This document shows positions 6,128 through 55,770 of a stretch of DNA of 64,000 bases, one piece after another. A model generated the notes under the pieces. It ran no database searches, had not been told where the DNA came from, and saw nothing but the letters and a program-made list of their open reading frames with translations. Numbering within the stretch: the first letter of the stretch is position 1; the number at the start of each line of letters is the position of its first letter. Origin of the DNA: Struthio camelus. Lineage: Eukaryota > Chordata > Aves > Struthioniformes > Struthionidae. A program made the translations under genes and the position numbers. Where the stretch lies: contig NC_090982.1 in assembly GCF_040807025.1 (NCBI RefSeq), positions 87,793,463 to 87,857,462 of the forward strand, written 5' to 3'.

Positions 6128-6457
6128 ACTGCTTAAAAGGATGAGTGGAGATTCTAATAGAGATCTGGATAAAAACTATGGCAAGCTCCATAAAAAAATT
6201 CAGTGTCAGCTCTCCTGACTCAACAGTATCTTCTCTCCTAGCAAGCTATGGCACTGACAGCAATAATCCGTGCTCAAACAATGTGATTTGCTACAAGGAC
6301 AAGCTTTACAGCTCTGCATCTGAGGCTCTGGAGGCATATATTGAAGATTTTGATTTAAGCCTCATGTCTCCAGAAATAAGCACTGGAAAAATCTGCATAA
6401 GTCAAAGCACTCCCAAACATACTGAGTTTTCCAAGTACCATGCCAAAGGAAGATATG
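6128..6457 (+). CDS. C18orf54: C18orf54 first coding exon
   Basis: The acceptor AG is at 6126-6127 after a T-rich tract, the main ATG at 6178 and the donor GTACGT at 6458. It encodes residues 1-93 plus one base. The frame reads on for about 50 codons into the intron without a stop, which would give a short intron-retention isoform ending near 6615. Confidence 0.9.
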
Positions 6458-9400: not shown

Positions 9401-12400
9401 CTTTTAATATGCGACATGAAACTTCCTCTTCACAAACTTCCGAGATCCTGAAAAGGAGACACTCCATGGATAAAGACAATTCTAATTTTTTTTTTGAACA
9501 CAATGATTGCCTGGATCTAATAGGTGATAACGAAATAGCAGAAAGTTGCAACTATGACAGTCCGGATTCATGCTTCCAATTTGGTAACTCCTTTTCAAGA
9601 CACACCAAAGAGCCATTTAGAGGTAACTTTATTTCACAAAATTTGTTTTTGAATTTTTTAGGATGTGTATAAATAAATTAAAGAAGTGTTCATTTTTTAA
9701 ATCGCAACACGAGCTATGTTAGTTGAACTGCACCGGATAGTAGATTTATTTACTCCCATCTTTGACAAATGATTAAAAGCGCTAACCAGTATTTGACCAA
9801 GTTAAACAGCTGCTATACTTCAGATTTTCATATATAAATTAATATTTAAGCATTCCTGTATCGCAAAGAATATTTGTTACAGTGTTATATTTAGCACCTT
9901 ACTGCCCGATAATAACAATAATTCCAAATATTTTAATAGAATTTCAAGCACTGAAGTAAATTATGTGAAGTGTAGACTTGAAAGAGAGAGATTCCTAAAC
10001 ACGATGTAAATGAATCTGCCAAATTGTTAAGAAGTATAATTTATCATGCAGTCTTTTCTCCTATTCTACACAGCAGGAAAAATTTGTAACCCGTAAATTT
10101 GGGTTATCTAATGCCCTCAATTTATATAAAGACTTTGTGTGAGACTCTCTCACGTAGCTGCTCTGTGTAGCAGGCGATTGCTTTTCAGCAGCGGGCGATT
10201 CTGCCATGTGGAAACACTGCCTTGTCTTTGTGTCGTGAAATATCGGTTAGATTTGCGTTAATATCGGCAATTAACAACTCTTAAGTATTAATTACCTTCA
10301 CTTCTCTCTAGTTCTCCTCATTTAAAAATAAAAACATCTTTTCTTTGTTATGCAAACCATAACAATTGATCTCTCCCCTTTTCCCAGAAGTTATATATAA
10401 AAACTAAGTTAAACTATTATTTATGTTATGAATTCAAAGTTACAAAAAGCCTGATTTGCGAATATCTGTAAGCCCCTTACCTAGTGTGTAAGGGGCATGA
10501 GGAGCTGGTTTCAATATGTGGTTACGTCCTTTCTTTCACCCAGAAATTTTTATCAACTATGAATAGGATAGATATAAAAATAGATGAGAATGTGTCTGTC
10601 ATTTTGAGTGCTTGTCTCAACCTATTTTTAAAGGTGAATTTTGTATGTGGTTATATGTATGATATGCATGTAGATGTTTGCATGATTTCTCTCCCAGGTA
10701 TCTGTAAAAGCTCATATTAGAAAAACCTATATAAAATACCAGGAAAATTGACCAATAGATTTGCAGTATTGATAGGCAACATTTCACTCTGTTTTGTGAA
10801 ATAGTCTTAATTGTATTTTGTACAGCATGAAAGCACTAGAAAAAAATAAATAATTTTGAATGCTGTATGTGATATTTGTATTAAATAAGTTAGGAAAAGA
10901 AATGCTTGACTACTTTAGACACCCTTCTGTCAAGAACCTTTCAGATCCCACTTGGTACAGATGATTTACATGCCATACTGTCGTACTGAGATAAGCAAAG
11001 GGGCTGTATTGTGGCTACCGTATCTGTAAAATATGTGCAGTGCTTTGTAACTCATCTGTAGTAATTTTCTTTGAGCAGTCCGTACAATTGAAAGTAGTGT
11101 GGAAATAATGCCAGCTTGAAGGGGGTCAGATGCATCGTATCTTTATTTTTTAGAAGATCGGCTTGAGCTACTTACCTTGAAGACTGAGAAATCTCTGGAG
11201 ACTTCAACTGAAGATTTGTCAAATTCTCTGAAAAATGATGACAGTCCTTCTACAACAGATATCCTAGAAGCAGAAAGATCATGGGAAAATATTCCAGTTG
11301 CTTTGTAAGTCAGCTTAGATTTTAAAATATTTTTTTCTTTTTTTTCACGTAGTTACTTTTGTATATGTAGACTGTAAGTAACAGAGCTGTGGTATATACA
11401 TAAAAGGTTTATATTTAGATTTTTGTGAAGTACAAAACTTTTGCTATTTCAAGGTCAGGAGATTCATGCACTACTTTCCCCTTTTCACCATCTCGAGAAG
11501 AGTACTGTCCGTATTACTTACTGTTGCCTTTTAATAATGTTTCTTGTATGCTGTATCGTTAACATACAAAGATATTACTTCAAGAAGAAAATATTTAAGG
11601 GAACTTAAATTGTTAGCTTTAACATTTTATGGGTTTCCTGGCTAATAGTTGTGGGAAGTGTGCTTTAAAAAAGCAGTATGGCCTTGAGAAATTTTGGAGT
11701 GCTCCGGGGAGTGAAATTTCTATTGTTCAGGAAGTGGAAGGTATATGCTAGAAATCAATACTAGAAGTTTCTACAGCTTTAGTCGTTTTTAAGATGAAAG
11801 AAGCCATTTGTGGTTATTTGCATTGTCTATCTGCCAGTTTCCCTTTACCCAGAGGATTTTGAACCATTGGTTAATTTTGCTAATATTTAACAGATGAGTA
11901 AAAATGTCAAAATACAACATTCTTGCAGGATGTTTTTGTTTGTTTGACAATAGAAGAGGTACTATTAATGCTTCTCCTGAGAGAGAGGATGACAATCTAA
12001 CCCCCTGCTAGCCACCAGAATATTCACCTAGGAGAGCACCTTTGGAAATCAGGCTTCATTAATTTCTGATTCCATGAAACTACTTGTTTTTGAGACTGTA
12101 GAAGGATTAAAGGTCAGCAAGGATAAGGAAACTGTTTTTCTTTGGATGTTGAATACTAATGCAGGAGTAGCAGGTGTAAGAAAAACATCCATGTGTACTA
12201 CATTATGGCTAGGTTTTAAAGAAGCTCCAAAGCGTTAAATACGTCCTTATATCACCTTTTTTGTTCAGTTGCTTTGTTATGGCTACCAAGGTTTTGATTA
12301 TACTGGCAAAACTGGGAAAAACAGTTATGTGGTTCTATTGCAAGCACCAAAGTGCTGACAGGACTACTCAGTGCCGCGCAGTGTTGCGTTGAGGCAGTAT

Positions 12401-17100: not shown

Positions 17101-20100
17101 AACTCCAAATATTAAATTACTTGGTCAGTTTTAGTCACCGCTTAACTGCCCAGATCATGAGAAATGGGGAGCTGATTATCATGTGTAAAGTTAAACAGGA
17201 AGTTAGCAGTTATTATGCAAGATGTTCAGTGCTCTTCTTTCTAACAGGGCTTGAGTTGGTGTAATTGTGTGCTCCTTGTTCTGCCAACTACACACTTGTC
17301 AAATATATTGTATCCAAAAGCGTCTGAAGTCTTTTTCATTGCCCCCCTTTCGCATCCTAGTGAGGCCTGGTTCTTTGGGTGGAGGAGGTACTCATTTGGA
17401 AGCATCCTATTCAGGAGCAAAGAACAAGTTACAGCTGAACTGATCTTCCAGTGGATTGCTACTGTTCGTGGCAAGTCCTAATCTCCCTTCTGTTTTCCTT
17501 GGCCTTGTTCTTGGCTTTGGAGCTCCCCAAATCTTTCACTGGGCCTAAACAGGTAGAAGAGTATTTTTAGCTGCGTAGCTGAATAGAATCAGCTCACCAA
17601 AGCCACCAGTAAGCACTGGAACTTGTGCAGGAGAGAGGGGAATAGGACTTAGCCCTTCTTGGAAGTAGCAAATTGAAAGAGAAGGAGAAAAGCTGTAAGT
17701 GGTAGAGTTGTGGCTTGAAATGTATTGACAGAACGTTTTGAAAGAAGCCTTTTGTACCTCTTCTCTGGCTTACGTCTAGCATTTTATGTTCTCAGTAAAC
17801 AAAATCTGCATGGCAAAATGCTTTTCTAGTAAAATATTTATTTTTAATCTGGCTATATACAGGTATACATGAGAAAAGATGTAACTGAGCGTGTGCTGGT
17901 TTTGATGAATGAAAATCAAACCGAAAGAAAAAGTGGAAGGAAGATTAGCTGTGCATTCCTCCCACCTTCCTGTTAAGAATTAGTAAGTAGAGACCAGTAG
18001 TAATAATGACTGTTCTGTGACTACTGTCTCAGGATCATGAGTTCTACAAATTTATGTATTTCAGACACACAGATTTCATCAGTCTGTTTCCAAAACAGTG
18101 AGAGCTACATCTGAAATCAAGAGTACAGAAAATGAAATTACTCTTCTAGAGCACTTTTTTGCAGAAACTTTTATAAAGCATCACACTGCTGGGACAAGAA
18201 TAGACAAACCAACTGATACTGCTGTGTAACTGTTAACTGCATAACCGTTGTCTGTATTAAAAGAGAGGTCATTTTAGGGAAGGAACTCAAAGGCGGAAGG
18301 AAAGATAACAATTTTTTTCGTGACATCATGCATATCTCAGCATAGATCACAGTGAATTTGCTGTACTTTTGCGCTAGCCTGAATGCTGTGTGTATGCGGT
18401 TACGCACGGCATGTGTATGCTGCGTAGCTTGAGCTAAGACACTGCAGACTGTCAGCGCAGCTTACTAGTGTGGCACTGCCTGAGCTATCAGCTCTGCTGT
18501 TTCTGAGCTGGAGCAGGCTTGTGCCTATCCAGCTCACAGTAAAAACATACATTTATTCATGCAAATGTGCAGATGCTCCTTGGGGGGCTGGTAGCACAGG
18601 AGAGGTGTGCTCAAAGCAAGACTTGATGCCCTGAGAGTACTTAGATGTTTTAACACACAGAGTCTCCTTGTATCCTGCTTGCAGGGTTATATAGGACAAG
18701 ATACACGAGACATCCCCGACTTTTCCCTTGATGTTGAGGCAGAGCTCTAGTTTGCTGTTTGAAAAACCTTTTTCCATTAATTCCCCTTTGGAGAGTCTTC
18801 ACACCTGGCCATTGCTGTGCAGTGCCTCGTTTTCTGGGCATTTTAGTAGCCCAAGAGTCATTTATTCTCTCTCCTGTGCCTCTAGATACCTCTTTTTTAT
18901 CTGTTTCTATTTAGTGACACAGCTTTCAGTCCCTAATTCAGTTGACTTTCGTGGGGTGTTTCAGCAGAACTTTTTCTCAGTTTTTATGGCAGACAGACCT
19001 AAGTAACAACACCAAAGAACTGCTGCTAAGTTGACATTGTTGAATGCTAGTATTTATTAGCTTTGGATTGGTAAGGTATGAAAGGCCTCGGTTATGGACA
19101 GGACGCATAGTGTGAGGTAGGATAGTGCACAAGATAAAAGTACCTTAAGTATGTGTAACTAAGCATCAAACAAGTGACGCTTGCTAGTTATAAATTATAG
19201 AAATACAAAAAAAAAAAATAGAATAAAATAAAATATAATACTAATAAAGCAGCACTAGTCAGTAAGTAGAGACAACTTGTTTCACATATAAAGTTATTTT
19301 AACACGCTACCAAGATTTTTATGGCTATTAAACAGTATTTTAAAGAACAATTTGATCCTTTACATATCAAAATAAAAAAGTAACTTTCTGAATGTGTACA
19401 CTAAGTGCTTCTTGCAATTCTAGCTAGAATTTGGTTTGCTTAGAAGTTAGAATAAAGAAGCTGCCACTCAGGAAAAAAAAGTGAGTATGTAAATAAAGTG
19501 CTGAACAGAGGTAATAGGCATTTTCAAGATGATGCCACTGATGTTCTTAGTGTTGAGGCTATGTCAGAGGACAGGAATTTTATTGAACTATAATCTTCTG
19601 TGGTGACAGTGGGGGAAAAAAATGACAGGCAGAAAGATAAAGACAAGGATTTGGAGGAAATACTAAATAAAGGATCTGGGCTAGTTTAAAGGAAGGTCAT
19701 TGTTTCTCAGCAAGTTGCCAGAACTATTTGTTGAGGATATACATGAATATTTGTGATTGTGTGTATTTGCATATACAGGAAATGTTTTACGAGGAGAGCA
19801 CTTCCTGAATTACAGTGTATATATATATCAGTAAATCTGACCTGAGAGATGTAAAGGCTTTGATGAAGAAAGCATCTTGCAGTTAGATCTTGTGAAGATC
19901 CTACCTGTGGTAAGAAAATGACTTGGCATAGTGGGACATGGTGGGAGGAGAATAGACAGGATTTTTGTCTGTTTTAGGGATTTTTGCCCTTCAAATGCTT
20001 AATGGGAGAGTCCACTGTAATACTAGTTTTGAAATGGAATGACTGTACTCTGCAGTAATCTTTTCCACTGTAACAGTCCATCTGCAAATCTTTCTGCATC

Positions 20101-21999
20101 AGCGTATTCACACTGATACAAAAGAGGGCTGATATGGACAAACTGGCAGTTTCAGACTCCAAATAAGATGAAAGCTGGCTGTGCTTGCAGTACAGATTAA
20201 TGTGGTTAGAGTTCATAGCCCTTTTAATCTGAAAAACTACAAACCCTATGGTCACTCATTATCAACCTGAGAATTTTTTTCCTATGTAACTATGTAACTC
20301 TGGCAGTGTCAGAGAAGCTTTATTATCCAAAAGATGCTTGTGGAGTCTCAGATATGTGTAACTATCTGGAGTGTGAAACTATTGAAAATCATGATGGATA
20401 TTTTCTTTCTTGTTCATCATGGATTCTATGTTAGTTTTTTACCATAATTTTCCATTACTGTGCGTTACCCAAAATATTTGGCCGACATGATCGTTGGAAG
20501 GTCTCACACCGTGGAAGGGGAAATGGGAAATTTCACAGGGAAATGAGAAAAACTTGTCATTGATTCTAATTGACCTGATGCTGCCAATGTGAATGGCTGA
20601 GATTTTCAAAGCGCTACCAGAACGGAACAGAGAAGACTGCTGAGGAGAGAAGAGCTCTATCTCATGGGGAAAAAAATATATAGATATTTTTTAATTTAGG
20701 CTTACCAACTTAGGAGAGGAAGTCTTTAAACTAGGATTTGTGAGAACTGATGACAAAAGAATGTGAGTGAGTTTTAACAGTGGAAGGTAGTCAGAGGCAC
20801 AGTAGCTGTGGAGATGGGGATTTTTATAAAAAGCCTGAAGCAGTACAAAAATTCAGGATAGTGAATGTGTCTGCTTAACATTTAAGATGTCTGTATACTA
20901 ATGCAGGATGTATGAAAACTAAATGGAAGAATGTACAAGTTTCCATATAAAGTTGTGTTTTATGCAACATAAATATTAACTCGGTGGGATATTTAATTTG
21001 TTAATGAATTAATACAGAAAAAAGTAGCGGTGGTTCTCGAACAACAGTAGAGGGAAAGAGAAGATTTCGCTATAAATGTTTATCTCTGTTGAGATAATCT
21101 CTACTGAAGTCTAGAATATAGGGGTAGATGACCTATTGAAAGTGTCTTGATCATAGTAAAGGGGGAAAAAAAACTGAGTGGTGTTATGCTGAGAACCTAT
21201 CATTAAAGATCACCGAACCAAGAAGATAAGACAGACATAACTTTTTTGTGAACAACTAACAATCATTTGACTCGATGAGATATTATTTAACCAAATATTT
21301 GTCAGAAGAAGGGTAAATAGACCACAGAGTATCCAGGCTATTTTTAGAATGTGATGATGCCAGTTTTTGTTGCAGAAGGCGAAGATAAATACAAGAATTT
21401 TCTTACAGAAATTTCCTAATTTTTAAAATCGAAAAGAGGAAGAATAGGGAAAAGAGCACCTTAAAGAAATTAAGAGATCTGATTTGCAAAATCCAGTGAG
21501 AAACAGTCTAAGGAAAAAAGGCGCTCAGGAGTTTGGCAGTTCCTAAAATATGTATGTGATAAGATATATTTACAGGCTATACTGATATGGAACAAGGAAA
21601 AGAAATAAGTTTGGCTTGCACCCTTGAAAATTCTCCAAGAAGGAAAAATAAAGGAAATAGCTGGAATTGCTCCTAAACGTGAGTCACCATGGACTTTTGT
21701 GCTTTTCGGAAAGTCCAAAGCACAAAAGTGAGACACAAGTAGGAAGAGCTGTCAAAGATAATACAGTAACTCAGAAGTTCCTTATTGCTTACAGTACTAA
21801 GTAACTATTTACTATATGTACATAAGTAACATAGCTGTAAGTAAGCCCTTATAGCTATAAGGAAGGACGAAGGAAAATCTTGGTCCATTACTCCTCTCCA
21901 GAGAGTAATAAATGATGTCAATAAAGGCATACCATTTATTTAAAACGTCAACTGCAATCAAACAGCTAACAACATCATTGAGAAGGGTGGTAGATAAAG
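17101..21999. other. intergenic, no gene recognised
   Basis: AT-rich sequence between C18orf54 and the CR1 fragments. It has an A-rich tract near 19208-19240 and a short hairpin at 21691-21729. The small open frames show no splice-site support or family resemblance. Confidence 0.55.
21691..21729. repeat. perfect 13-bp inverted repeat
   Basis: ACTTTTGTGCTTT at 21693-21705 is the exact reverse complement of 21717-21729, separated by an 11-base loop. A second, shorter pairing (21691-21697 with 21710-21716) overlaps it. Confidence 0.8.
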
Positions 22000-23080
22000 C
22001 TCAGATTACGACAGCGAAAACATGATTGAGAGGTCTTGCACAAGTTACCTGTGTTCAGCGGATCATGCCTACCGGAATTAACACTGAGCTTTTGGAGACC
22101 TGGCTGAAGCTCTCTTAAAGTTGTTAGCAGTAATGTTTAAGAATTTATTGTAGTTGCACAGGAGTCCAGAAGGCTACAAAAGTACAAATGCAGTGCCCGT
22201 TTTTAACAAAAAGTCAACTAAATGATGCCAAAGATTTATAGGCCAATAAGCTTAACTTCACTTTCCTAAAAATTCAGAAGTACATAATGAAACCTGGAAG
22301 ATATGGAAATAAGAAAAAAGAAAGCCCACAGATTGTAATGAACACTGTGTATCAAACCAATCTAGTTTCCTTTTTATGACAGGGTAACAGACTATGAGGA
22401 CAGGGGAGAAGAAGTGTCATGTATCTTGACTTTAGCAAAGCTTTTGACGCTCTTTGTGTGCCTCCAAACAAGGAATCGTAGTCTAAATTAAAATACATAA
22501 GTAAGCATGATTGGAAAGCCATACTTTGAGAACAGTTAACACTGAAGCCTATTGCTATTCATTATTTTCATTAATTTGATGGTTTTAGAGAAGGTCCAGA
22601 GGAGAGTGAGTGAGATGATCGAGGTGATCAAAGAGCTGCATAGCAGGGAGAGACTAAAAAGGCTGGAACTCTTCAGCTTGGAGAGGAGAACATGTGTTTG
22701 ATGTTGCTCGAAGCCCACAGTGCAGAAGCTAGGGAGGACTTAATGAACCTGACAAGAGGTTTGTTTAGGATGGAGAAAGGAATGTTCTTTTTTTTAACCA
22801 GGAAGCAGTAAATTTCTGAGGTTAGGGGAATCAGCAGGTTCAGAAAGGACTTGGAAAAAGTTGGGGCCTTTTTTTATGGAATGAAATCTAAAGGGCTATT
22901 CCCTTTAGCACCCCTCATCCAACAGTTATGTGTGTTTGTAAAGTATGAAAAGAGTAGCTTGGAAGTAGTAGCCAGCCTATGCTGTCCCGCTTAATATCCT
23001 TTTGGAGAAAAATTACTGGGCTGGTTGTATTGTTGGTCTGACCTAGTAGGGCATTTTTCTATGTAATTAGTTCCACTGTG
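22000..23080 (+). mobile_element. old CR1 LINE fragment with reverse transcriptase remnant
   Basis: It contains the decayed phrase 'ataggccaataagctt' and, at about 22425-22450, a remnant coding for L-D-F-S-K-A-F-D-A, a reverse-transcriptase motif of CR1-type LINEs. Then follow the 3' segment near 22600-22690 (aaaaggctggaactcttcag, like CR1 3' regions) and the characteristic end 'ctgggctgg...ggtctgacctagtagggcattttt' near 23020-23060. It is broken by stops and deletions. Confidence 0.8.
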
Positions 23081-23089
23081 GGACAGACA

Positions 23090-23335
23090 AAATGTAATAG
23101 AGTTTAGTTGCCGCAAGAGTGATTTAGGCTTGTGAAAACGTTTTTAACAATAATAATTTGTAAGTGGTGAAATAGGTTGCCAAATAAGTTGTGGAATCTC
23201 AATGTTTTTTGTGGTGTGTAAAAGCACATTACACAACATCCAGAAGGAATAATTTAAATATGTTTGGACCCTTAGTATAGGTGAAGAGACTAGATGACCT
23301 CTGAGGATTCCTTTCTGCCTTTTTAAAAAGTATTT
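23090..23335 (+). mobile_element. second old CR1/L3-type 3' fragment
   Basis: It shows the diverged but recognisable order aataggttgccaaataag, then gtggaatctc, then gactagatgacctctgagg. This is the 3'-end signature of CR1/L3 elements. It lies directly after the CR1 copy ending near 23080 and is probably a separate insertion. Confidence 0.65.
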
Positions 23336-25583
23336 AATGGTTCAGCCTCTATCTCATTGCCATGTTGTGTCTTAGGGTTCGTGAATAACGTTAAAGCTGA
23401 ATGTGGAAATTGTCGGGCCTTGCCCTTGTAGTTCAGTGAAGAAGAGGTTTTTTTATTGCAACACGTTGCCATACTAAGTTTCACTACTGTTACTACACAA
23501 AAGATGATGAGTCATTTCCCTATGCTCTGTCTGTAACATAACTGAGAACATATTGGAATTAACATTCTTTCGGATCACTGTTTTTCTTGTCTTTTGTGGG
23601 CTAATCTTTTTCAGCTTCACTAAATGGATAACCAGGCATTTGAAATGCACGGAGAGAGCATACCAAGTTCTTCAAAAACAACAGAATGGCCAAAGAAAGA
23701 GGTACGAGTCAATTTCAGTTATGATGCTATCAAAATATTATTAATAGAGAGTCAGTTAGAAGATTAAACCCTTGCTTAGTAAATATGATACAATCAGTTA
23801 CTATTAGGAAGGTCCTACAAGAAAATAAAAGCTCTACAGGGTTGCTATTGCTATGGTCCTGAAATGGAGTGTCCTAGCTCCACGTGCGCTCACTAGGATC
23901 TGGACTGTGAGGTATGATTCTCCAGCCCCATTTTAGTTAATAGCAAAACTCCTATAACTACTGAATAGTTATCTCTGGAGGATTCCCCATTGATTTTAAT
24001 GGGAACTGCTACTTAAAAGCTGATCTCATGGTAATGCTTAACGTCTCTACTTAGTTATGTATTTGTGTGCTGCTTCCTTAAAAAAATTTTTTTGCCTTTG
24101 AGAAAAGTCATTCTCTATAATTTTCCCATTAAACTTTTGCTTCTTGGGGTTTGAATTAACTCCATACAATGAGGGCTGGTATATCACTCATAAGCTGTTA
24201 CATTTGATTGCAGTCAGCAGTGATGCTTCCAGGCTGTAAATACACCTAGGCTAGGGATTCCTTCACAGCATAACTTGTTCCACACATTGCATTGAGGTAG
24301 AATGTTCTATATTAGTTATTATTATGTAATATGTACAGCAGTCTTTCTATTTTTAAGAATAATTATTGAATTGGTGCCACTGCTGTGAAAATGCTGTAAA
24401 TTAAAGGTCATCCGAGTCTGAAAAGTGGGAATTTTGTATGCATTTGGGTCTGAAGCCTTGTTCTCTGGAACTGATGAGACTCTGTGTGGTTTGAGTGCTA
24501 CTGTTATGATATTTAATTGAGCACAAGCTTTAGAAAAGGAATAATTTAAACTGTTAAAAGGATTATTACAGAATAGAATAGGGTGATATTTGGACCACTT
24601 TTCTGCTGGCAAGGGAAATTTATTTGTAGAAGAGATTTTGTCAAATAGATTCATGAAAGAAGGTCATTTTGTTAAAATTGGTAGGTAATTTTCAATTTTT
24701 TCCTTTCTGATTGTAGAGCTTAAGAAATGAGTATACATAGCTTGATTTTCAGGCACTCGTCATCTGAAAATCAGGCTTTTAAAGAAAGATCAAGCTGTGC
24801 ACCTAGAATCGCGAGAGTTTTAAAATGTGGGCCATAGAATGCGGTTTTTATTCATCTGAAGCTGCAATTTGTAAGAAAAAAGATTAAGGGACAGGAAACT
24901 GAAAATCCTCACCAAAATGTTGCTTTGTAGTGCCAGAACACTGTCTACAATTGCAGGGTAGATTAAGAGCATTTTTAGTGCCTTGGCCATCTACAAAGAA
25001 CTTCTGTCCTTATGTATGCCAAGGTGCTTCTCCCCTTCATCCTTCTCCAGAGGCCTGAATGTCCTCAGAGGAAAATTAGAGTAAAGAAATGATGCATAGA
25101 GCAGTTTAATACAGGTGAGATTTCCTCTTCCTGCCCCATCTTCTCCTCACCAGGGAGCTGGGCCACTGAGAGCCTTCTGTGAGATGTGAGGTAAAGCAGA
25201 CAGCATTTTCCTCCTCACCCCACAGGGAGACATTTACCGTGGGTTGATGCGGCAGGTCTTTGGAGTTTTGAGATACAGATTAGAAACAGTAATGAAAAAA
25301 CGTTAAGTGTTTGGAAGACCAGAGGATGAGGAAGATGTGCTTTTACTTGGCGGAATAATGAAGGGACAGCAACCATCTGATGTGATTCGATAACATACTT
25401 TGTAAACAGTTTCCCTATGCTGAGCCCAGTAAGTTGGCTCAGAGTGTGTGTTCCTTTCTGAAAGGCTTACTGTTTTCATTACAAAGGAACTGCTATGGTT
25501 TGTCCTGTTTGTTATAGCTGTTACTGATTTTTTTTTTTTTTCTAAAAAAGATATTTCAGGAAAGAAAGAGCTACTGCTCCCTA
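23336..25583. other. intergenic, upstream of the bicupin gene
   Basis: AT-rich sequence that should contain the promoter and any noncoding exon of the bicupin gene, but I cannot place either. There is no CpG island and no clear TATA box. A T run (25528-25541) before possible acceptors at 25550 or 25559 suggests that the first coding exon is preceded by an intron. Confidence 0.5.
24739..24777. repeat. 14-bp inverted repeat with one mismatch
   Basis: AGCTTGATTTTCAG at 24739-24752 pairs with 24764-24777 with one mismatch and an 11-base loop, about 800 bp upstream of the bicupin start. Confidence 0.75.
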
Positions 25584-25664
25584 ATGAAAATATTTCTAGT
25601 TTGTCTGTTGGCCTGTGTTATCACCACCACAATAGGAGTGCTGGCCCTGTCTTTCATCTATGCA
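25584..25664 (+). other. predicted signal peptide of the bicupin
   Basis: Residues 1-27: one Lys at position 2, then an uninterrupted hydrophobic stretch (I-F-L-V-C-L-L-A-C-V-I), a Thr-rich bend, a second hydrophobic part (G-V-L-A-L-S-F) and I-Y-A before E28. Signal peptide is preferred; an uncleaved type II anchor is the alternative. Confidence 0.7.
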
Positions 25665-25784
25665 GAAAACACTGGCTTTCTAAAACAGACAGATGTTAAA
25701 AACTCGGACACAACCCCCCCGAAAGCAGATGAAAAAGGAGTGGATATCAAATTCCGGTTCCTGAATCAGCTGGGAAAATCCAAG
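25584..25784 (+). CDS. bicupin exon 1 (signal sequence and linker)
   Basis: It runs from the ATG at 25584 to the donor GTAAAT at 25785: 67 codons, phase 0. It encodes the hydrophobic N-terminus and a polar linker with D-T-T-P-P. The ATG has a weak context (C at -3). The frame stays open upstream through the T tract, so an additional upstream start cannot be excluded. Confidence 0.85.
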
Positions 25785-28700
25785 GTAAATTGTTCTTTTT
25801 GTGCAATGATATTCTAGCATTATATATAGAAATATAATGAATTCATCTCACCTACCTTTAATTATTTAAGCACTAGGTGTCCAGTTTAAGCCTGTCATCC
25901 AGGCTTCTTTTATAATCAATGAAGAGAGATACAAATCTCCAGACCGCAGTTCATTCCATTTCATAACAGATGTTGGAGGTGATACAGGACCACGGAGATT
26001 CCTCTGAGATAGCTAAACAGTTGCTCCAACAAATTCAGCTTGCAAGATAAGGCAACCATTTTATGCGTGATTCTGAAATTACAGGGTAGGAAATTCTGAG
26101 AAACATAAACAGAAAGCTCAAATCTAAATATAAGCTCAGTAACCCACTAACATTTTCCTTCTTATGACTGAATTCAAACAAACGCTTATTTTGCAAGAAG
26201 AAATTAACTCCATGGTCTTTTTTTCAGTGAGCTAAAGTGAATTAACTCACAATGTAATGAACCCTACCAATTACATTGTTTCTGTTCAGTTGTATTTTCA
26301 TACTTAGAGAAATGTATCCTTTGAACAAACTCTAAAGACATATTCCATCTTACAAATTTATCTTTACATAGAAAATGTTTTCTGATTAATTCTTATTGCA
26401 GCTTTTCAGCGAAAAAAGAGAAAAGGATAGATTAGATAGTAGAACGCTTCAACTAATTACAACTCTTATACTACTTTTAGATGTTAGATTTAAGTATGTA
26501 ATACTCGTGAAACAAAGGTGTTTTTTAAGAGGAGAGCATCCCTTTTAATATGCTATTCCTGAGCGCAAGGTGATTTTTTCAAGTATAAAACATATTCTAG
26601 AGACAGTACAAATATTGGGGAAGGAACAGCTTCAGATACAAATAATTTGCCACTGTTTCTAGAGCCTTAATTCAGGAAAATGTCTTACTCAGGAAATTTT
26701 CTAAATGTTTTGAATCCAAAAATATAAGCATAAATATAACTGATTGCCTAAATCGGACTCCAGAATGACGTAAAAAGAGGAGCAGATAATTCCATCCTTA
26801 ATACCGCTATTTAGCTCTCATTTGTAGAAACAATACCATTACATCATAACAGGAGACAGTAATTGTGAAATGTGACTAAAATACATGCAGAGAGAATTGT
26901 CACTGTGAAAAACAACGGGTCCCTTCAGTATTGCCCAGACTATGCATCTTCCAAAGTATTTTTGGATTGTTTGGTCACCGCTGTCCACAATTAATAAAAT
27001 TCTCTTCTGTCACTAACTTTACAGGTACATCGTTTCCCAGGTGGTGATATTCAGTGGGCAAGATTCAGGAATGATGTAAATGAATATCAAAGCGTTCAAG
27101 AAATGGAATTTGGAAAAAGTATCAATAACTTTCGCTCTAAAATGACTTTTGGAACCTTACGAATCAAGAGCGAAGGGCTTCGAGTTCCCCACTGGCATTT
27201 TAATGCTAATGAACATGGCTACCTGTTAAAGGTATTATCTGGTTATTTCAGCTCTCCCAATTGGATTTGCTGTTTAAAGCATCATGTATATATAGAAAAT
27301 GTAAATATGTAAACAAAAATGTGTATATACATTATATACAAAAGTTAACTAGTGATAAAAGTAGAATTATCATTGATTCATGTATGACATGAGTTTCGTC
27401 ACTTCAGATAACATTCTTGAACTGAGGTGCTTAAAACAGTCTATTTAATGTTGTTACTTGCAGAAGTGCCAAGCACTTGTAGCTTCCAATAAAGTGTAAC
27501 AACTGAAGTCAGTGGAGATATGGATGCCTGCAACATGTAGAATTTTATCTATTTATCCAAGAGCTTACAATGATTTAGGTAGTTAATATTGTAGAATCAT
27601 CACAGAATCATAGATTTGAAGGACTGTTAAGGTTATTAAGAAAGCCTCTGCCTTCATCCTGTATATTGGTGCAGGATGAGAAATACCTAAGCATTTCTGA
27701 GAGCGCATTGAATCTGTTTTTAAAACCTTCCATGAAGGACCTATTACAAGGTCCGAAAATAGTTGTCTCCAGTGCTTTATAACACAAACCATTGGAAAGT
27801 TTGTGCTGCTGTACAACTCACGTTGTTGTTTATTGCAAAATATCTCCTTGTTTATCTCCAGTGGCTGTGGAGACCCTCTGATCATCTTTGTTTCTTACAA
27901 CAACTGTTTATATGTGGAAGACTATTTTGTTCCCATGTAATCTTCTCTTTTCTAGACCAAATATCCCTCCCCTTTTTTCCCAAAAAACTCTCCTTTGAAA
28001 ATGTTTGTCCAATCTCACCTTAGAGACAATTTTCAATTCTTTAAAAATAAATAAAGAAAATAAAAAAGATAAATACAAACTCACAGTGAGGAAAAATTTG
28101 AGCTGGCATGTTAATCTGAAAAAAAAGATCTTTCTGTGTAAGCGCAGGTACTTAGATATATCTTGATTTTTGATTGTATTTCTAAGAATACTTATTCATA
28201 TTTTTATTAGAGTATAGCTGAACAGCTCCAACTGGATGGGGGGACATCCCTGGAGTGAGGCATTCCATAGACACCTAGCCCTCTCTCCAACTATTTTTGG
28301 TTAAAGATGGCTTCTTTATGGCTATTGACAGCCTCTTTAATAAGAAGTGGCTTAAATATGAGTAGTGTGTATTTGTCACACGTTCTCTAAACCTTCTCAA
28401 ATTTCGTCAGTCAAAATACTACTCTGGATTCAGTTTCACAAAGGCTTGTTAGAGAGAGAACACTGGTATTGGTTTTCCCCTAACAGCCTTCAGATTCCTT
28501 GCATTACTGATTTGTCATACACAGGTTACAGTAAATAAAGTCTCTGAGGAAACTTTCATTGCTATCGCTATGTTACAGGGTACTGCCTGGATTGGAGTAA
28601 TTGATGCAGATGACAGCGTGGTTACCACATACAATGTCACAGCTGGCCAAGTGATCTTCTTCCCTAGAAACACTTTGCATTGGATAAAGAATGTAGGAAA

Positions 28701-31700
28701 AGAAGAGTGTATGTTCTTGCTGTTTTTTACAACACATGAAGAACTTAAGACCTTGGATGTAGATGATGCATTTTTCTCTACCCCAGAAGATATAGCAGCG
28801 AGAGCATTAAAGGTCTGTACAGTAGGATAGCTAGCCTCTATCTAGTCTTCTTGACATTACTATGTCAGGTCCAAGCTCTCTGTATCTTTTCTAGGGAGGT
28901 TCCCTAGCTCAGCTGCTCTCTTCAGTCCTACCAGCGTGGAAGGATGTGCAAGTGTCCCTTGTGCAACACTGTGCCACCTTGTGTGTTCTTTTACAAACAC
29001 AGAGGAATAAATGACACAGTTTTCTCCAAGAAACTTTTTCTCCTCCCTTTTCACGCTTGTCCCAAACTCATGGAGGAGTCTCCACACTTCCAAGGACAGA
29101 AGGGAAAATAACAAAGCGAAGTCCAAAGTACCTTCCCGGTAGCCTCTTAGTAAATTTTGTGCTATCAAGAGGCCTCATGGGAAACCATAGATAAGGCCAT
29201 CTTCTTGCTGAAATGTCTCTCATTTGCACCGACCAGTTGCCAAGGTCCTTTGACCAAGAATATGGCCACAGAGCTTCTGCTCAGTCTGAGCTGTCCTAAC
29301 TGAGAAGCAAGAGTAGAGCAAAGGAGCAAAATGAAGTATTCATAGGGGTAGGCAGTTAAAAAGATGAGGTATGTCCCCAGGGCAGGATTTGTCTATCACC
29401 ATGTATTAAGGTGGGATACTTGATGAAGTACAGTTTTGATTCCCCGGTTTGCTTTGTATATCTGTCAACTTAATATGTACTATGTGTCCTGCAGCCACAG
29501 GGTGGAGTTAACTTTATCAGAACATTCAAGAAACAAACAGAAGATCAAGCCATTAACCTCCCACCAAACTTAAAAGAGCTCGTACAGAATGCCAGCTATG
29601 TGCAATCTCCAGATAGCCTTGTATGGCGGTACTTCTACGACCTCAAAGGTATACATCTAAGCACTTTGTATGTAACAGGTTTTGGTGTTTACAGAGAGGA
29701 AGATCTGTAATTGGTTCACTGAAACATGCAATAAAAAGTATATAGAAGAGTGAAAAGAATTTAAGGAAGTAAAAAGAAGAAGAATGGAAATCTGTACAGA
29801 CTGGACCTGCTGATTAACAGGGAGCCCCGAAAAAAACATGACAGATGACAGAATTTAATTCTAAGTACCACCGTAAAAAACAAATACAGGTCCAGAGCTC
29901 CACATACAGCTGATGGAAGTTAGAAGAAATAGATATGTGACAGAAATCTTTACACTTGGGTCAACATGTTCTTTGACCTAATCCTCTTTAACAGACAGCT
30001 AAGAAGTGGCCAGACTCTATGAAAGCCTCTTTATCTGGCCAGGACCTATATGCTTTCAGCAAGGAAGGCACAGCCCATGGGTGGACTTATTAGCTGTATT
30101 CTGCTTGAAGATCTAGCTATGCCAAGACAGTGCTTCAAGAGACAAATAGGCCAGGTTTGCAGCTTGTTTGCATTGGTGGTGCCTTGCAAACTATTGGAAC
30201 ACACCATTAGTGCCATAAAGGTTAACATGAGTGAATATGCTGAAACTTAGTGTGTTCTCTAAGTGTATTGTGACTGATAGTAATCATGTTTGTGACAGGA
30301 GAAAATGCTGTGTAAAGGCAGATATCTGCTCATGCAAGAGATAAGTAATTTAAATTCAGGAAAAAATTCTAATATGTGATTTTTGTTATGGTGATCTGTC
30401 TGTGCAAACATACAGTAAACTGGATTAATTGTTCCTAGTGTGCATAGCATCTAGTGCACAAAGGAATAGTAAGCTAAGTGAGCTTCCCTTTGGGATCCAG
30501 AGTCTCATAAGATTTGCAGCCTGAAGTTTAGTACACAGTGATGATCTGAGGCTGGCCAATACACTAACAAGCAATGTTAACCAAACGTTGTTGAAAATGC
30601 TCATTTGTATGTCTCTCTGTTTTTTAGGGTCAGCAGAATACCCTTTTCCGGGAGGAATCTTCCAGTGGGCTCGCTACCGCATAAATGGAACTGGACTGAA
30701 CAAGACAGAGAAAATTTTTAGTGAGTCACTGAATAAGGTATGTGCTTTCGGTTGGATACTGTAGCTATTTTAACATAAGGCATAGTATGCAATGTGTGGG
30801 GGTTTGTTACTGCTTTGTTGTGTTTCAGGGATATAACAAACTTGAGGGACTTTCTGAACATTTTTGTTTTGCTTTTCAGCATGAAAATACCCTTACCTTA
30901 GCAACTCTCAGAATATTCAGCAATGGACTGGGGCAGCCTCATTTCCACTTCAATGCTAATGAGATGGGTTACGTCATTAGTGGCTGTGGAAAGGTAATTT
31001 GTTACATCAGTGAGGGATAACTCACTGGAGTTTTGACTGTATAACAGTTACAGAGTTAATAACGGATTCCCATCCCTGATTATTAATAATATTACAAAAC
31101 TTTCAAGGTCTACTCAGTCCTTCTTCATACAAAATTTTTCTTTCCATTACATTTGTGGAAGTTTATCTAATCAAAATGGAGTTATAAAAAGAGCAGAATG
31201 GGCCTTAGCAAGCTGTTCAGCAAAAAATGCCCATGATAGGAATTCCCTCTCTCCTGGATACTGGGAGTATGAAATAAAAAACAGAAGAAATTATGATTTA
31301 GTGCCTCTAAGGAACAAATAAAAACTTAGTGAGAATTAAGAATTAGAATATGATATTTTATTATGTGTCTTTCACTCAGTGCAAATTTGAAATGAAAAGG
31401 TAGCTGAGATGGGATGATGGAACTTCATAATGCAAGGAGTTACCATGTTCTTACTTAGGAATTTGCCTTGGACCCCTATAACCTTTCGGGATCTCTGTGA
31501 AAATAATGACTCTGCACTAGCTGATTTCAGTGCAATGTTGGGACTGTCGCTGAGTATTTATCCAATAATAGCACACTGACTATTGCTATTGAATATTGCT
31601 ATTTAACTTGCTATAGGTTGGGGTTATTGCATCTGATGTCACAGCCAACTTCAACATTGACATTGGAGATGTCATATTTTTCCCTGTTGGAAGCCAACAT

Positions 31701-32530
31701 TATATCAAGAGCGTATGTGATGAGGATTTATTTTTGATTCTAGCCTACAGTACAGGCAACCAGGTGAGAATCCGTATGGACGGGGAGTAAAAAATGTTCA
31801 ACTGTGCACAAGCCTATGCTTTTTTTATGGATGTAAGCCTTATACTTTGGTGCACACCTCTCAAAAGAAATTCTAAGACTATCTGAAGTGCACTGACAGT
31901 GAAAATTCTCTTCTGGGGTGCATGTCGACGAGTAACACCTACTAAAACTGTACTTGCGAACAGGAGGTGGGGAAGACAAGGGAAAGGTCTGTGGTAGGGA
32001 ACGGTGTGCTTCTGCGTGTGTGCTTGTAGGTATTTGTGTGGAAGAGGGAGAGGGATGGAACTCAGATCATGCTTGTGCGTGATGTGCTATTGGTGTTTAA
32101 GAGACAGAGCTTGTCAGTGGGTGGACTGGACAGGCCATGGCTCCTCACAAGCCCAGGGACCGCAAAAGGGGAGAGGTCTTCACAAGCCTCGAACAGGTCT
32201 ACATGCTAGCAGCCAGAGCAAGGATATATTAAGCTGAGACTGTATGTACCTGGTGATATGTACCTGGCTTATAATGAGTTACTTATATATTTTTATATTC
32301 ATTCATATTCATGTTGTATTTGATATGCACTTCAATATTCCATATTATTAATCTTGTAAAAAAAAAAAAACCAAGTCATTGTGATTATTCTTAGAATATT
32401 GTGTTTTTCTTTATAGCTGGAAACTCTTCGTATGAATGACTACTTCCATGCAACAGCAGATCATATCCTTGCTCAGCTTTTTTTCAAGGAACAGAATGAG
32501 TTTAAAAAGATCCTACAGCCTTCTAAATAA
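25584..32530 (+). CDS. secreted bicupin, oxalate-decarboxylase-like fold, eight exons
   Basis: No gene name is recognised. Eight exons join in frame (25584-25784, 27025-27231, 28579-28812, 29495-29648, 30628-30737, 30880-30993, 31617-31763, 32417-32530) to give 426 residues. Residues 1-27 form a hydrophobic signal sequence with likely cleavage after I-Y-A. Two cupin domains follow, each opened by F-P-G-G-x-x-Q-W-A-R (71 and 272). Domain 1 has H123-W-H125, E130 and H170; domain 2 has H323-F-H325, E330 and H368. These are the four metal ligands of both cupin motifs, in the spacing of bacterial and fungal oxalate decarboxylases (Mn) and related bicupins. Plant seed-storage bicupins have usually lost them. 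Four N-glycosylation sequons (N155, N246, N285, N290) support a lumenal or extracellular location. The loop equivalent to the catalytic lid of bacterial OxdC seems shorter; E190/E191 are the only nearby acids, so activity and substrate are open. Splice sites are all GT-AG and there is no frame break. It follows C18orf54 in the same direction. Confidence 0.9.
27025..27231 (+). CDS. bicupin exon 2 (cupin 1, motif 1)
   Basis: The acceptor is TTTACAG and the donor GTATTA; 69 codons, phase 0. It contains F-P-G-G-D-I-Q-W-A-R and G-L-R-V-P-H-W-H-F-N-A-N-E, which is cupin motif 1 with ligands H123, H125 and E130. Confidence 0.92.
27595..28022 (-). mobile_element. old CR1-type 3' fragment, reverse orientation
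   Basis: In the plus direction it begins 'cacagaatcatagatttgaaggac', the reverse complement of a common CR1 3' end, and continues with decayed sequence such as 'gttcccatgtaatcttctcttttctagaccaaatatccc'. It lies in the second intron of the bicupin gene, antisense to it. Confidence 0.7.
28579..28812 (+). CDS. bicupin exon 3 (cupin 1, motif 2 and C-terminal helix)
   Basis: The acceptor is GTTACAG and the donor GTCTGT; 78 codons. It encodes T-A-W-I-G-V-I-D, then G-Q-V-I-F-F-P-R-N-T-L-H170 (cupin motif 2), then F-S-T-P-E-D-I-A-A-R-A-L. The last resembles the T-P-x-x-V-I-A helix that ends each cupin half in OxdC. Confidence 0.92.
29495..29648 (+). CDS. bicupin exon 4 (inter-domain linker)
   Basis: The acceptor is CCTGCAG and the donor GTATAC; 51 codons plus one base. 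It encodes P-Q-G-G-V-N-F-I-R and an interdomain segment with N-A-S-Y (sequon N246). It ends in the only phase-1 junction of the gene. Confidence 0.9.
30628..30737 (+). CDS. bicupin exon 5 (start of cupin 2)
   Basis: The acceptor is TTTTTTAG and the donor GTATGT. It encodes Y-P-F-P-G-G-I-F-Q-W-A-R-Y-R, the second copy of the domain-opening motif, and sequons N285 (N-G-T) and N290 (N-K-T). Confidence 0.92.
30880..30993 (+). CDS. bicupin exon 6 (cupin 2, motif 1)
   Basis: The acceptor is CTTTTCAG and the donor GTAATT; 38 codons. It contains G-Q-P-H-F-H-F-N-A-N-E, with ligands H323, H325 and E330 exactly 200 residues after those of domain 1. Confidence 0.93.
31617..31763 (+). CDS. bicupin exon 7 (cupin 2, motif 2)
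   Basis: The acceptor is GCTATAG and the donor GTGAGA; 49 codons. It encodes V-G-V-I-A-S-D and G-D-V-I-F-F-P-V-G-S-Q-H368, the complete second cupin motif of domain 2. Confidence 0.93.
32417..32530 (+). CDS. bicupin exon 8 (C-terminal helices and stop)
   Basis: The acceptor is CTTTATAG; 37 codons and TAA at 32528-32530. It encodes L-E-T-L-R-M-N-D-Y-F and a helix H-I-L-A-Q-L-F-F-K-E, the counterpart of the helix that closes domain 1. Confidence 0.92.
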   Translation: METLRMNDYFHATADHILAQLFFKEQNEFKKILQPSK

Positions 32531-33440
32531 CTGGGCAAATAACCTATCTTAGCGTTTAATCACTCCAAGTATTTTTCAAAATTGCCACATTTCTAGCAGT
32601 ACTTCTTGGTACCTTTCCTGCTATTTATCCAGAGATGTTCAGAAAACAGAAGAATTTCGGGTCATTACTTTTTATAAAAAGGTTTTTCTATTTGTATTTT
32701 TAACTTGTTTTATTTATAGTGCAATGTAATTTTATTGTATATAAAAGTAACTTCTACCACTGCAATTGCCTTTTGCTCTGTATATTATCCATTATCCCAC
32801 TTTATCTCTTCCTTCACAGTACTGAAGTTTACATTGGTTTTCTGTATTGTTGACAGCACTCTATCTAGTGGTGTATATGCATAAATACAGCGTGTTTACA
32901 TCACTCCGTCTCTCGCCTGAAGCCAGGTGTTGTTATAAGCACTGCATCTAATTTGGGTTGCAGGAATGAGCTCTTCATACATTCATGTTGTATTCACTTT
33001 CCCTCCCCAAACTGCAACCCCTTCAGTGAGGCACTGTATAAGAATTTAAGACAAGTAGCTTCTTATTATGATTTTGCCACTAAACTGCCATCTGATTTTG
33101 AGCAAAATATTTGAGGCCGGATTCATAACAGAATGTAGACTCAGTAGCAGCTACGCTGTGTGCTGCGTGCCGATGCTCCCTCTGCAAAAGATGGGGAGCG
33201 TTTGGCCCCAAAGAATTGGGCTAGAAAGAAGCAAAGATAATTTGACAGACTGACATCTATGCCATTTTTTTGTGACCTTCAAGTTCCATTTCACTAGGTA
33301 ATTATACCCAAGAGAATGGCTACAGCAGGGAGGCACAGAGATATTTTTCCATTTTCCGTGGATTAAGGCGTTTTTTCAGGGAAATGATCTCTGTCTCGGG
33401 AAAAACCTACTCGGGTCACATGGTTTAATTAAATCAGGGT
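32531..33440 (+). other. bicupin 3' UTR and flank
   Basis: AT-rich sequence after the stop codon with no canonical AATAAA nearby; the closest variant is TATAAA at 32740-32745. The 3' end of the transcript is therefore not fixed. Confidence 0.4.
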
Positions 33441-36400
33441 CAAAGTGGTTTACTGATTTATTATCAACACAGAAGAAACCAGGATTCAGTGAAATATGCA
33501 GTCGGGATCAATTTCAGCAGTACCACAGATAAACCACAATCCTAGCCACTTACAAAATGTTTGTGAACACCTACAAACTTCTGAACACTCCTCTGTAACT
33601 AATCCCAGGAAGTTTTATTCATGCGCATCCACAGACGCAGTTGCTGTACACCCTCTGTCTGTCCTGGGCAGTGTGGGTCACAAGCAGCCCCCCTCCTGGG
33701 ACAGGGGGTTCCCCTGTGTACACACACCACCAGTTGTAGGTCCTACAGCTTTGTGTGTACCCACACAAACACCCTTTCAGACAGTTTTGGGTATTCCCCT
33801 TGCAGACAGTGTTACACTCCCGTTCCTGTCCCATCACCTGGGGTTGTCCAGGCCACTTTGCCAAGAGGAAGGGCTGCGCGGGCCCCCCCACAAACCTCTT
33901 TCCCAGTTACAATGCAAAGGGGACATCTCTGTATCCCAGCTGAGTGTGTTGACAGTATAATAAGCTCTGCCTCCTCCTTGCCAAAATTTTGTGAAACCCA
34001 ACTGAGGGTTTATTCCCTGGACTGGACCACGCGGACAAGAGAGGAGAGGGAACGCCCAAACTATGGATCCTGATGGGGTAAAGCACAGAGCTGTTCACTG
34101 CCTTCAAGAAAAGATGGTTGCATGCATACCCAGGAGTAGAAATTTCGGCATCATGTAATTAACCTACCGCTCAGTGGTGGTTTTAACAATCGAGGGTTTT
34201 GAAGGGAAAAAGCAATAGTTAAATGTCTGAAATGGAAGTTAGACATAAACATCCCGTTACAGGCCTAACCCAGAATTCAGCTGCAATTTCTAGGCCTAGA
34301 AACTACAGAATTGGACCTAGAAGTCAGGGGTCCCGCAAGCAGCAGTTCTCCTGTGCCACATCCCTGCCAGTCACCACAGCCTGGCCAAGCCCTGACACCA
34401 GCCCCGGAGGGCAGTGTACCAGGGCTGGACTTCACTCCGCAAGCACCATGTTTTGTACCACAGCCCCTGCCAGGAGGGGAGGTCCTGGCTGGTGATTAGA
34501 GCATTAAGTGCTTCAAGGTGTTAGCAAGGTAATAGGCTCTGTTCATCAGGAAAATTTTATTCAGGTGCTGGTAATTGGCCCAGGGCTCTGATTTGAAACA
34601 GTTCACCCTAAAAAGGAGGGATTTGAGCCTGGGTGCTTGTTTCTTAGCTGAGACCCTTCTCAGGAGATCCAGCTGTACTCCCCAGGCAGAGGGGCTGCTC
34701 TTCCAGGTAGGAGAGAAAATGCAGCTTATTAAGGAACAGTGATGTGTTTTTGTTGTATGGTTTTGTTCTACTGTTGTTCTTTCCTTGTGTGGAGAATAAC
34801 AGATTGAAAAGAAGAAAAGGGTCTCTTCCTGTAGTAGCTGTGGTGTTTGTTGTCTTCTGTCCACCTGTGTGCTATGGTCCCAAGGCAGCATGTTTAGAGA
34901 CCCCTTACAGGTACTCACCAGCTCATCTTGGTGCTTGTTTCAGTCCATGCTCCCAGTTGGGTGCTCCTAGGGCCTGGTTTGACCTGTGGGTTGCTATAGG
35001 AGAAGCTTGTCTTGGCCTTCTGCTGTGCCTTGTTTTTACCTGCTGCTTTTTAATACATTTTTTTATTTGACTTTAAGCCGCTCTTTAAAACACACTTTCA
35101 GAGATTTGGGCTCTCTACTCATTTGGATGCTGTTATTGCTGGTGTAGAGCAGGACTGTGACTACCAGTAAGAGACAGCAATTATGTTACTTTTGAAAAAG
35201 CTATAAATGTTGAAAGCCCTTATCTTCTAATTTGGCTTTGCAAGCTGATCTTTATGAATCTGCAAATACTGAGAAGTGTGAAATCGGTGTGTGTGCGCTA
35301 CAGAAGCCAACTGGTGGAAATGTTTATGTAGAACCCTATCAACTTATTTAACCCTGTTAATGGCCTCGCTAAGACTTGCAAGCAGTGGCGTTCAGGGGTC
35401 AGCACTTCTGTGGGTATGTTTCTGGAGCCCTGTGGGAAATTTGGCCCTATCAGTCTATTCTCACTGGGCTATAAAAGTCATGCTCTGTCTCTTCTGCTTT
35501 ACAGCAGCCAGGCTCAGGGTGCTGCTCTCTGGAGAAGCTCCTGGAGCGACTGTGCAGGGAAACACATTGCTGTCGTTTATCATGCCATAATGAAATGATC
35601 ATTGCCTTGTGCGCTCAAATCAGTTGGTTTAATAGCCTGTGAAACGCATTTTCCGGAAGTGATTACTACCCAGTCAGCTGCTGTAACCATACCCTTGTGT
35701 TTTGTAAGCAGGCTGGCATTTATGAAGGGTGGGTGTTTTGTTTGTTTAGGCTTTTTTTAACTAAACAATTAGCATGTTCTTAGACTTATTTTTGATTTTG
35801 GTTAAAGTTTTGGTCTATTAATTGCAGACCAGTTTTCCAGTTCAGTGAAGTGCTTGTCACTTAACTGTAAGCAGGTGTACTGGTGGGTTAACTTTGTCTG
35901 TTTTATAGATGTGCTGATTTTAATGCTTCTTTGATGCCCATGAGTAACGATGACCCAGCTGTTCTTCCAATAGGTTCTTTAGCTGCCTTTGATCGTTATT
36001 CAGTGTACTGGTCCCTACCAGAACAGGGATGTTTGTGTGTAAGAGTCACTCTTTGACTGGAGTTAAGGCCCAAAGTAAAAGCTTTTTTCTGTGTGACTCC
36101 AGTCAACCATTTGATGGCTGCAATTAGTCTTTGTGTTGTCATTGATTGGGATTTAATATCCAGTTGTGTTTCTTGTCCTGCCTCTTGGAATCGGAACCCA
36201 AACAAATGGCCAGATGGCCTGTGTCGGGTCTCTGTTTTTGTGTAAGTTGCCCAAATCGGTGAATGTTCATTAACTTTGAGCCAAGAGCCTTACCTAAAGA
36301 CCTGACAAAGACAACAAAAAAGGATCTGGAGGCTTTCTACTTCAGCCCTGCATCGAGAGCTTGAAGCTGCTGCCTGCACAATATTCGAAATGCCAAGTGC

Positions 36401-55439: not shown

Positions 55440-55770
55440 AGCTGGTGGGATGCTCGTGGACGGGCATGTGGAGGGGCTCCTGGGTGGCTCCTGGATGGGT
55501 TCATAGATGGGCTCCTGGATAGCTACTGGATGGGCCCATGGATGGCTCCTGGACAGGCTCATGGATGTGTCTGTGGACAGGTTTGTCGATGGGTTCGTGG
55601 AGGGGTTCATGGACGGGCTCCTGGGTGGCTCCTGGCGGGCTTGGGGATGGCTCCAGGATAGGCTCGTGGATGCGTTTGTGGACAGGCTTGTCGATAGCCT
55701 CATGGAGGGGTTCATGGGCAGGCTTTTGGGTGGCTTATGGGATGGGCTTGTGCAGGCCCTCATGAAACTC
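55440..55770. repeat. minisatellite with 105-bp higher-order period
   Basis: Degenerate units of the type GGCTCCTGGATGG / GGGTTCATGGACGG are repeated many times. A higher-order unit recurs after 105 bp: ATGGATGTGTCTGTGG at 55561 against GTGGATGCGTTTGTGG at 55666. Because 105 is a multiple of three, long open frames run through it on both strands (a 271-codon frame on the minus strand and frames of 75-132 codons on the plus strand). I do not call these genes. Confidence 0.85.

Follow-up and report, generated by a model that had tools for sequence, protein, structure and literature searches.

The window analyzed here, a 64,000-nucleotide stretch of ostrich (Struthio camelus) DNA, contains a gene for a protein with two cupin domains, or bicupin. 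We suggest that this protein is anchored in the membrane in type II orientation, that its first cupin domain (D1) is a metalloenzyme, likely dependent on manganese, acting on oxalate or a similar small acid, and that its two-domain form goes back to a duplication independent of the one in bacterial oxalate decarboxylase, OxdC. We give this reading a probability of roughly 0.4. Database comparison indicates that the gene, although hardly studied, is unexpectedly widespread across jawed vertebrates and already recorded as a prediction. The novelty would lie less in the gene's presence in birds than in the nature of the protein, a membrane-anchored, separately evolved bicupin with an OxdC-like first site and, in birds, an altered second one.

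A preliminary description of this DNA had reported eight in-frame exons between 25584 and 32530. These exons are bounded by GT donors and AG acceptors, and splicing them yields 426 residues and a stop codon. All eight metal ligands it had named are present at the positions given (H123, H125, E130 and H170 in the first domain; H323, H325, E330 and H368 in the second). Its view that the gene was complete did not hold: a ninth coding exon lies upstream (Table 1), and the true 5' edge of the exon that follows is at 25551 instead of 25584. An in-frame alternative acceptor for this exon is seen at 25560. The nine-exon translation of 463 residues is letter-for-letter identical to a RefSeq protein (P0002) named "oxalate decarboxylase OxdC-like [Struthio camelus]". 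The eight-exon product is 100% identical to the same protein over all 426 residues, indicating that the exon model is not the product of chance. The ATG at 25584 is internal and encodes residue 38 of the longer product, whose numbering is used below. In total the coding exons span 8.9 kb. Pfam Cupin_1 (PF00190) matches two stretches of the protein (E 9.6e-34, 116.6 bits against a gathering cut-off of 22). The ostrich gene is real and intact. A scan for AATAAA and a repeat scan of 20000-36000 gave nothing informative.

The N-terminal region resembles a membrane anchor. Pfam places a CLLAC-motif domain (PF15675) at residues 1-26 of the eight-exon product, with 43.4 bits against a cut-off of 25. 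An AlphaFold2 model computed from a 40-row alignment (mean predicted local distance difference test score, pLDDT, 71.2; predicted template modeling score, pTM, 0.69) contains a helix at residues 37-65, after which come the strands of both cupin domains. Residue 38, the starting Met of the shorter model, lies just before the predicted transmembrane helix. The N-terminus therefore has the look of a cytosolic tail rather than of a signal peptide, and a secreted product is less likely than a type II membrane protein. A search with the first 124 residues as profile found 28 matches in the protein database. Two proteins named "dynactin-associated protein", from a bat (P0207) and a wallaby (P0208), carry nearly the same CLLAC segment around the helix and have no visible cupin. 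DYNAP (C18orf26) and the bicupin thus have a transmembrane segment in common, and the name "dynactin-associated protein" on bird bicupin genes looks carried over. Human dynactin-associated protein, dynAP, belongs to the same CLLAC family. It is described as a type II membrane protein of the Golgi and the plasma membrane (PMC4540312, PMC8329785) with a C-terminal region rich in Ser and Thr (PMC4540312), its C-terminus being outside the cell (PMC8329785). Because dynAP, with the shared segment, has its C-terminus outside, the bicupin would face the lumen or the cell exterior.

A search for relatives matched 189 proteins, and the list covers the best 120 of them; statements about taxa rest on the named rows in that list. 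All named relatives are vertebrates, from shark to mammals. They comprise birds, alligator, turtles, lizards and snakes; frogs, newts, caecilians, coelacanth, elephant shark and manta ray; and platypus, marsupials and many placental mammals, with the lemur Eulemur as the one primate. Eight further rows in the list have mammals (seven rows) or birds (one row) as nearest named relatives. No monkey or ape occurs among the named matches listed in three profile or relative searches, the first being this one, and the protein database may omit human proteins. In alignment A1, 39 other full-length members are 61-84% identical to the ostrich protein. The named relatives share its architecture and go under several names: "oxalate decarboxylase OxdC-like", "cupin superfamily member 1" and "dynactin-associated protein". 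Judging by the label of the Apodemus row, the mouse gene would be Gm36255. Three carnivore bicupins (P0041, P0047, P0051) are called "lung adenoma susceptibility protein 2" (LAS2), which fits the presence of a LAS2 match upstream of the ostrich gene. A profile of domain 1 and the linker, run in a length range excluding most full-length vertebrates, gave 72 matches, the named ones again all vertebrate; this search requires shared five-residue words, so distant invertebrate or fungal relatives could escape it. The only teleost among the rows listed, the tarpon Megalops cyprinoides (P0171, "nectarin-1-like"), is represented by a piece of domain 2 in which Thr replaces the metal-binding Glu, which may point to change or decay among teleosts.

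We counted the residues of the two metal sites in 182 aligned rows (P0002 and P0004-P0184; P0001 and P0003 were excluded as odd long models), with clades assigned from names. Each ostrich domain has the ligand set of the oxalate bicupin family, three His and one Glu: His160, His162, Glu167 and His207 in domain 1, and His360, His362, Glu367 and His405 in domain 2. In domain 1, 123 of the 128 rows that have letters at every ligand position keep the full set of four; in domain 2, 155 of 158 do. Chicken (P0165) retains all eight ligands. By alignment, the surroundings of the first site also resemble OxdC. Arg157, Glu228 and Thr231, at the positions of OxdC Arg92, Glu162 and Thr165, occur jointly in 117 of 126 rows, and Trp161, at that of Trp96, in 144 of 144. 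Glu228 was equated with Glu162, a residue of the OxdC lid, by matching the TPED and TPKE stretches, with positions counted by hand, and the modeled lid is uncertain (pLDDT under 50 at residues 230-236). In the literature, a part in substrate binding is ascribed to OxdC Arg92 and Arg270, the proposed proton donor is either Glu162 in a flexible lid or Glu333, and long-range electron transfer is proposed for the Trp96/Trp274 pair (PMC3585803, PMC11433825).

At the C-terminal site, the Arg270 and Glu333 of oxalate bicupins are replaced in ostrich by Gly357 and Leu419. Leu is found at the Glu333 position in 156 of 161 rows. Position 357, the equivalent of Arg270, separates birds from other vertebrates. 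Among bird rows with a letter there, 52 of 53 have Gly, and one (P0136), whose domain 2 is disrupted, has Thr; three more are gapped. Named non-birds, in contrast, have Arg in 99 of 100 rows and Lys in one, with ten gapped. Of the other rows, seven have Arg and one, P0106, has Gly; the nearest named relatives of P0106 are birds. Because Gly357 is present in ostrich, tinamou (P0145), goose (P0010), owl (P0004) and chicken, the change from Arg to Gly probably predates the divergence of living birds. Taken together, these patterns suggest domain 1 as the working site, with a structural or electron-transfer role for domain 2.

Among relatives with a solved structure, OxdC ranks first. The likeness to Bacillus OxdC and the corresponding family model, TIGR03404, consists in the bicupin fold, four ligands per domain and, by alignment, the Arg92, Glu162, Thr165 and Trp96 positions of domain 1. 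The vertebrate protein differs in having only about 20% identity, a membrane anchor, a score below the family cut-off, a domain duplication of its own, altered residues at the Glu333, Trp132 and Trp274 positions and, in birds, Gly in place of Arg270. It also resembles a small group of bacterial bicupins, L003 (Phyllobacterium), L006 (Chelatococcus), L008 (Mycobacterium) and L009 (Chlamydiales), which share its R-x-PHWH motif, are about 24-26% identical to it, and score 98.4-107.6 bits with the profile versus 68.3-95.4 bits for three proteins of OxdC type. These bacterial proteins have their own domain pair in the tree described below, and L003 has neither the vertebrate N-terminal tail nor the helix. 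The R-x-PHWH motif is found in both of their domains.

We looked for a close bacterial donor. In a first genome scan, none of ten pattern matches was confirmed; a second, with a bacterial row added, returned 19 loci. A shark query against plasmids gave 24-27% identity among the matches listed (15 of 64 records). Over long alignments, 21 aligned bacterial proteins (L005, a duplicate of L003, and L007 were left out) are 23-28% identical, with 33% in L020 and L022 over fewer than 100 residues. Both a bird-only gene and a recent bacterial transfer into birds are rejected on the strength of the orthologues from shark to mammals.

The two domains of the vertebrate protein resemble each other more than those of bacterial bicupins do. 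Domain 1 and domain 2 (D2) of ostrich are 42% identical over 111 residues, and the values in seven vertebrates are 42-46%, versus 28-39% within seven bacterial bicupins. Both vertebrate domains also have a PGGxxQWARxR stretch in common. In a tree of 28 domains, the vertebrate D1 and D2 form one clade with support 98/95, the OxdC-type domains a second (91/88) and the R-x-PHWH bacterial bicupins a third (88/85). The tree took seven of 23 bacterial loci (L001-L004, L006, L008 and L009); L010-L023, with only one domain matching the motif, were left out, as were fungal, plant and invertebrate domains. A tree constrained to unite all first domains is worse by 28.4 log units and is rejected (p-AU 0.0023). 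The same constraint gives p-AU 0.0037 with OxdC-type bacteria only and 0.0126 with the R-x-PHWH type only. Under shared bicupin ancestry each vertebrate domain would join the same domain of OxdC, and this is not seen in the tree, which carries a long-branch warning. Because grouping by position is rejected, the vertebrate two-domain form probably evolved separately from bacterial bicupins. Taken at face value, the tree would mean that bicupins arose more than once and that the vertebrate one is no orthologue of OxdC; concerted evolution of the two domains within a lineage could mimic the same result.

Based on these observations, we propose the following model. The protein would have a short cytosolic tail, one transmembrane helix with the CLLAC motif, a stalk and an extracellular or luminal bicupin. 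In domain 1, a divalent metal, most likely Mn(II), would be held by His160, His162, Glu167 and His207. Arg157 would anchor a small carboxylate, as OxdC Arg92 does, and Glu228 on a mobile loop would serve as the proton donor, like Glu162. Working in this way, the enzyme would decarboxylate oxalate or a similar small acid, with oxidation as the less likely outcome. Domain 2, having no proton donor of OxdC type in nearly all rows and in birds no Arg either, would keep its metal for structure or electron transfer, and the two-domain form would stem from a duplication separate from that of bacterial OxdC.

Several observations weigh against this model. With TIGR03404, ostrich reaches 101.8 bits, far below the cut-off of 254.2, which elephant shark (141.8) and coelacanth (113.2) also miss; the bacterial controls L001, L002 and L004 pass with 365.5, 549.8 and 545 bits, and L003 falls below at 140.6. 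The Trp132 position of OxdC is Ile in 114 of 141 rows (Ile199 in ostrich) and the Trp274 position Phe in 154 of 161 (Phe361). Elephant shark has Gln at 228, and the lid has such low pLDDT that the place of Glu228 at the metal is putative. PMC3585803 describes a fungal bicupin oxalate oxidase that no longer took up Mn at either site once its C-terminal Arg had been replaced by Lys. As birds have Gly at this Arg, the bird protein may load metal poorly. The same source reports that adding a Glu to the lid of the fungal enzyme brought no gain of decarboxylase activity, so a lid Glu alone proves little. As to the duplication, the tree comprises 115 columns and seven bacterial proteins in addition to its long-branch warning. 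The profile search pairs the domains crosswise, vertebrate D1 on OxdC D2 and vertebrate D2 on OxdC D1, which is expected if neither vertebrate domain is orthologous to one OxdC domain.

The same departures from OxdC would suit a metal-dependent cupin enzyme of another chemistry, a dioxygenase, isomerase or lyase whose substrate is a sugar acid, a keto acid or some other metabolite and whose metal is Fe, Ni, Zn or Cu instead of Mn. This reading, which we regard as possible though doubtful, accommodates the score below the oxalate bicupin cut-off and the altered Trp132 and Trp274 positions. It also draws on weak matches to models of 3-hydroxyanthranilate dioxygenase (13 of 40 members) and mandelonitrile lyase (28 of 40 members), far below the cut-offs in the rows with listed scores, and on the best-scoring bacterial relatives, L003 and L009, which fall in the R-x-PHWH group of the tree and not with OxdC. 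However, the joint retention of the Arg92, Glu162 and Thr165 positions and the rank of OxdC as top solved relative argue against it. The ostrich protein also has its bicupin fold in common with the seed storage globulins (11S/7S), and, like these globulins, which keep the fold without enzyme activity, it could be a non-catalytic cell-surface protein binding a metal or ligand. We think this unlikely, since from shark to birds the ligands of both sites are retained, along with second-shell residues for which simple binding has no obvious use.

Two further readings concern the gene as a whole. The preliminary description had envisaged a secreted, bird-only relative of bacterial OxdC, with no described vertebrate member or mammalian counterpart known. 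Cupin ligands and fold agree with it; the CLLAC transmembrane helix directly after the supposed start ATG, the upstream exon, the vertebrate-wide orthologues including mammals and the domain tree make it very improbable. As a whole, that interpretation is partly supported. Decay of the gene in ostrich is more improbable still: in musk deer (P0158), grey whale (P0181) and pangolin (P0184) the predicted proteins are shortened or broken, through either decay or faulty gene models, but the ostrich gene has nine intact exons, no internal stop and all of its ligands.

Some sequences bear on expression. The open frames of goose P0010 and the bird-like P0106 are full length and lie on contigs no longer than 1,943 and 2,030 bases, respectively. 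These contigs are too short for a gene whose coding exons span 8.9 kb and look spliced; a processed copy is the alternative. The tag "lgn" presumably denotes Logan read assemblies. None of the matches listed from the open-access literature deals with what a vertebrate bicupin does. One article names sheep "CUPIN, cupin superfamily member 1" in the legend of its Fig. 5, on expression in caecal epithelium under undernutrition (PMC10100782).

In its widest form the proposal is of a membrane-anchored vertebrate enzyme degrading oxalate or a close small acid, derived from a separate duplication and altered at its second site in birds, with no intact gene in monkeys, apes and humans, where only the cupin-less DYNAP is known. 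We consider this full combination quite improbable. If true, the lack of an oxalate-degrading enzyme of their own in humans would be a loss and not an ancestral lack. An OxdC-like site in a gene of jawed vertebrates, from sharks to birds and many mammals, makes direct experiment possible, and the separate domain duplication and the Arg-to-Gly change of birds would be natural experiments on the role of the second site.

Table 1. Coding exons of the ostrich bicupin gene and associated features in the window.
Feature	Position	Strand	Remarks
Open frame with LAS2 (lung adenoma susceptibility protein 2) match	11120..11305	+	PF15792, 35.7 bits vs cut-off 27; upstream neighbor on the same strand, outside the bicupin gene
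Coding exon 1	23624..23701	+	residues 1-26, putative cytosolic tail MDNQAFEMHG...; peptide located at 23624; donor gtacga
Coding exon 2	25551..25784	+	residues 27-104: rest of the putative tail, predicted transmembrane helix, stalk
Predicted transmembrane helix, residues 37-65	25581..25667	+	CLLAC motif at residues 44-48 (25602-25616); from Pfam and model
Coding exon 3	27025..27231	+	residues 105-173: start of domain 1, Arg157 (27181-27183), His160, His162, Glu167
Coding exon 4	28579..28812	+	residues 174-251: end of domain 1, His207 (28678-28680), Glu228 at lid position (28741-28743), Thr231
Coding exon 5	29495..29648	+	residue 252 to first base of codon 303: interdomain linker
Coding exon 6	30628..30737	+	up to residue 339: start of domain 2
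Coding exon 7	30880..30993	+	residues 340-377: His360, His362, Glu367; Gly357 (GGG, 30931-30933) replacing the Arg of non-birds
Coding exon 8	31617..31763	+	residues 378-426: domain 2 His405 (31698-31700), Gln426 at lid position
Coding exon 9	32417..32530	+	residues 427-463, stop TAA

The LAS2 frame was the only one to reach a Pfam cut-off among 18 open-frame queries representing 16 distinct stretches of the window. Human DYNAP adjoins C18orf54/LAS2. Open frames at 6145-6612 and 8803-9669 (+), neither with a Pfam match alone, may be further LAS2 exons, and the G+C-rich segment 4001-6000 (57%) may hold the LAS2 promoter. Downstream, we would expect RAB27B as the neighbor; a search of all six frames for two short Rab motifs turned up nothing convincing, and such a scan does not exclude RAB27B. 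The region 34000-64000 is richer in G+C (44-55%) than the left part (34-42%, except at 4-6 kb), and the Pfam queries identified no gene there. Frames at 14815-15012 and 22546-22808 (+) resemble remnants of CR1 LINE (long interspersed nuclear element) reverse transcriptase, as judged by eye. On the minus strand, an open frame of 276 codons (55029-55856), without a Pfam match, encloses a degenerate tandem repeat at 55469-55735 with periods of about 12, 35 or 105 bases.

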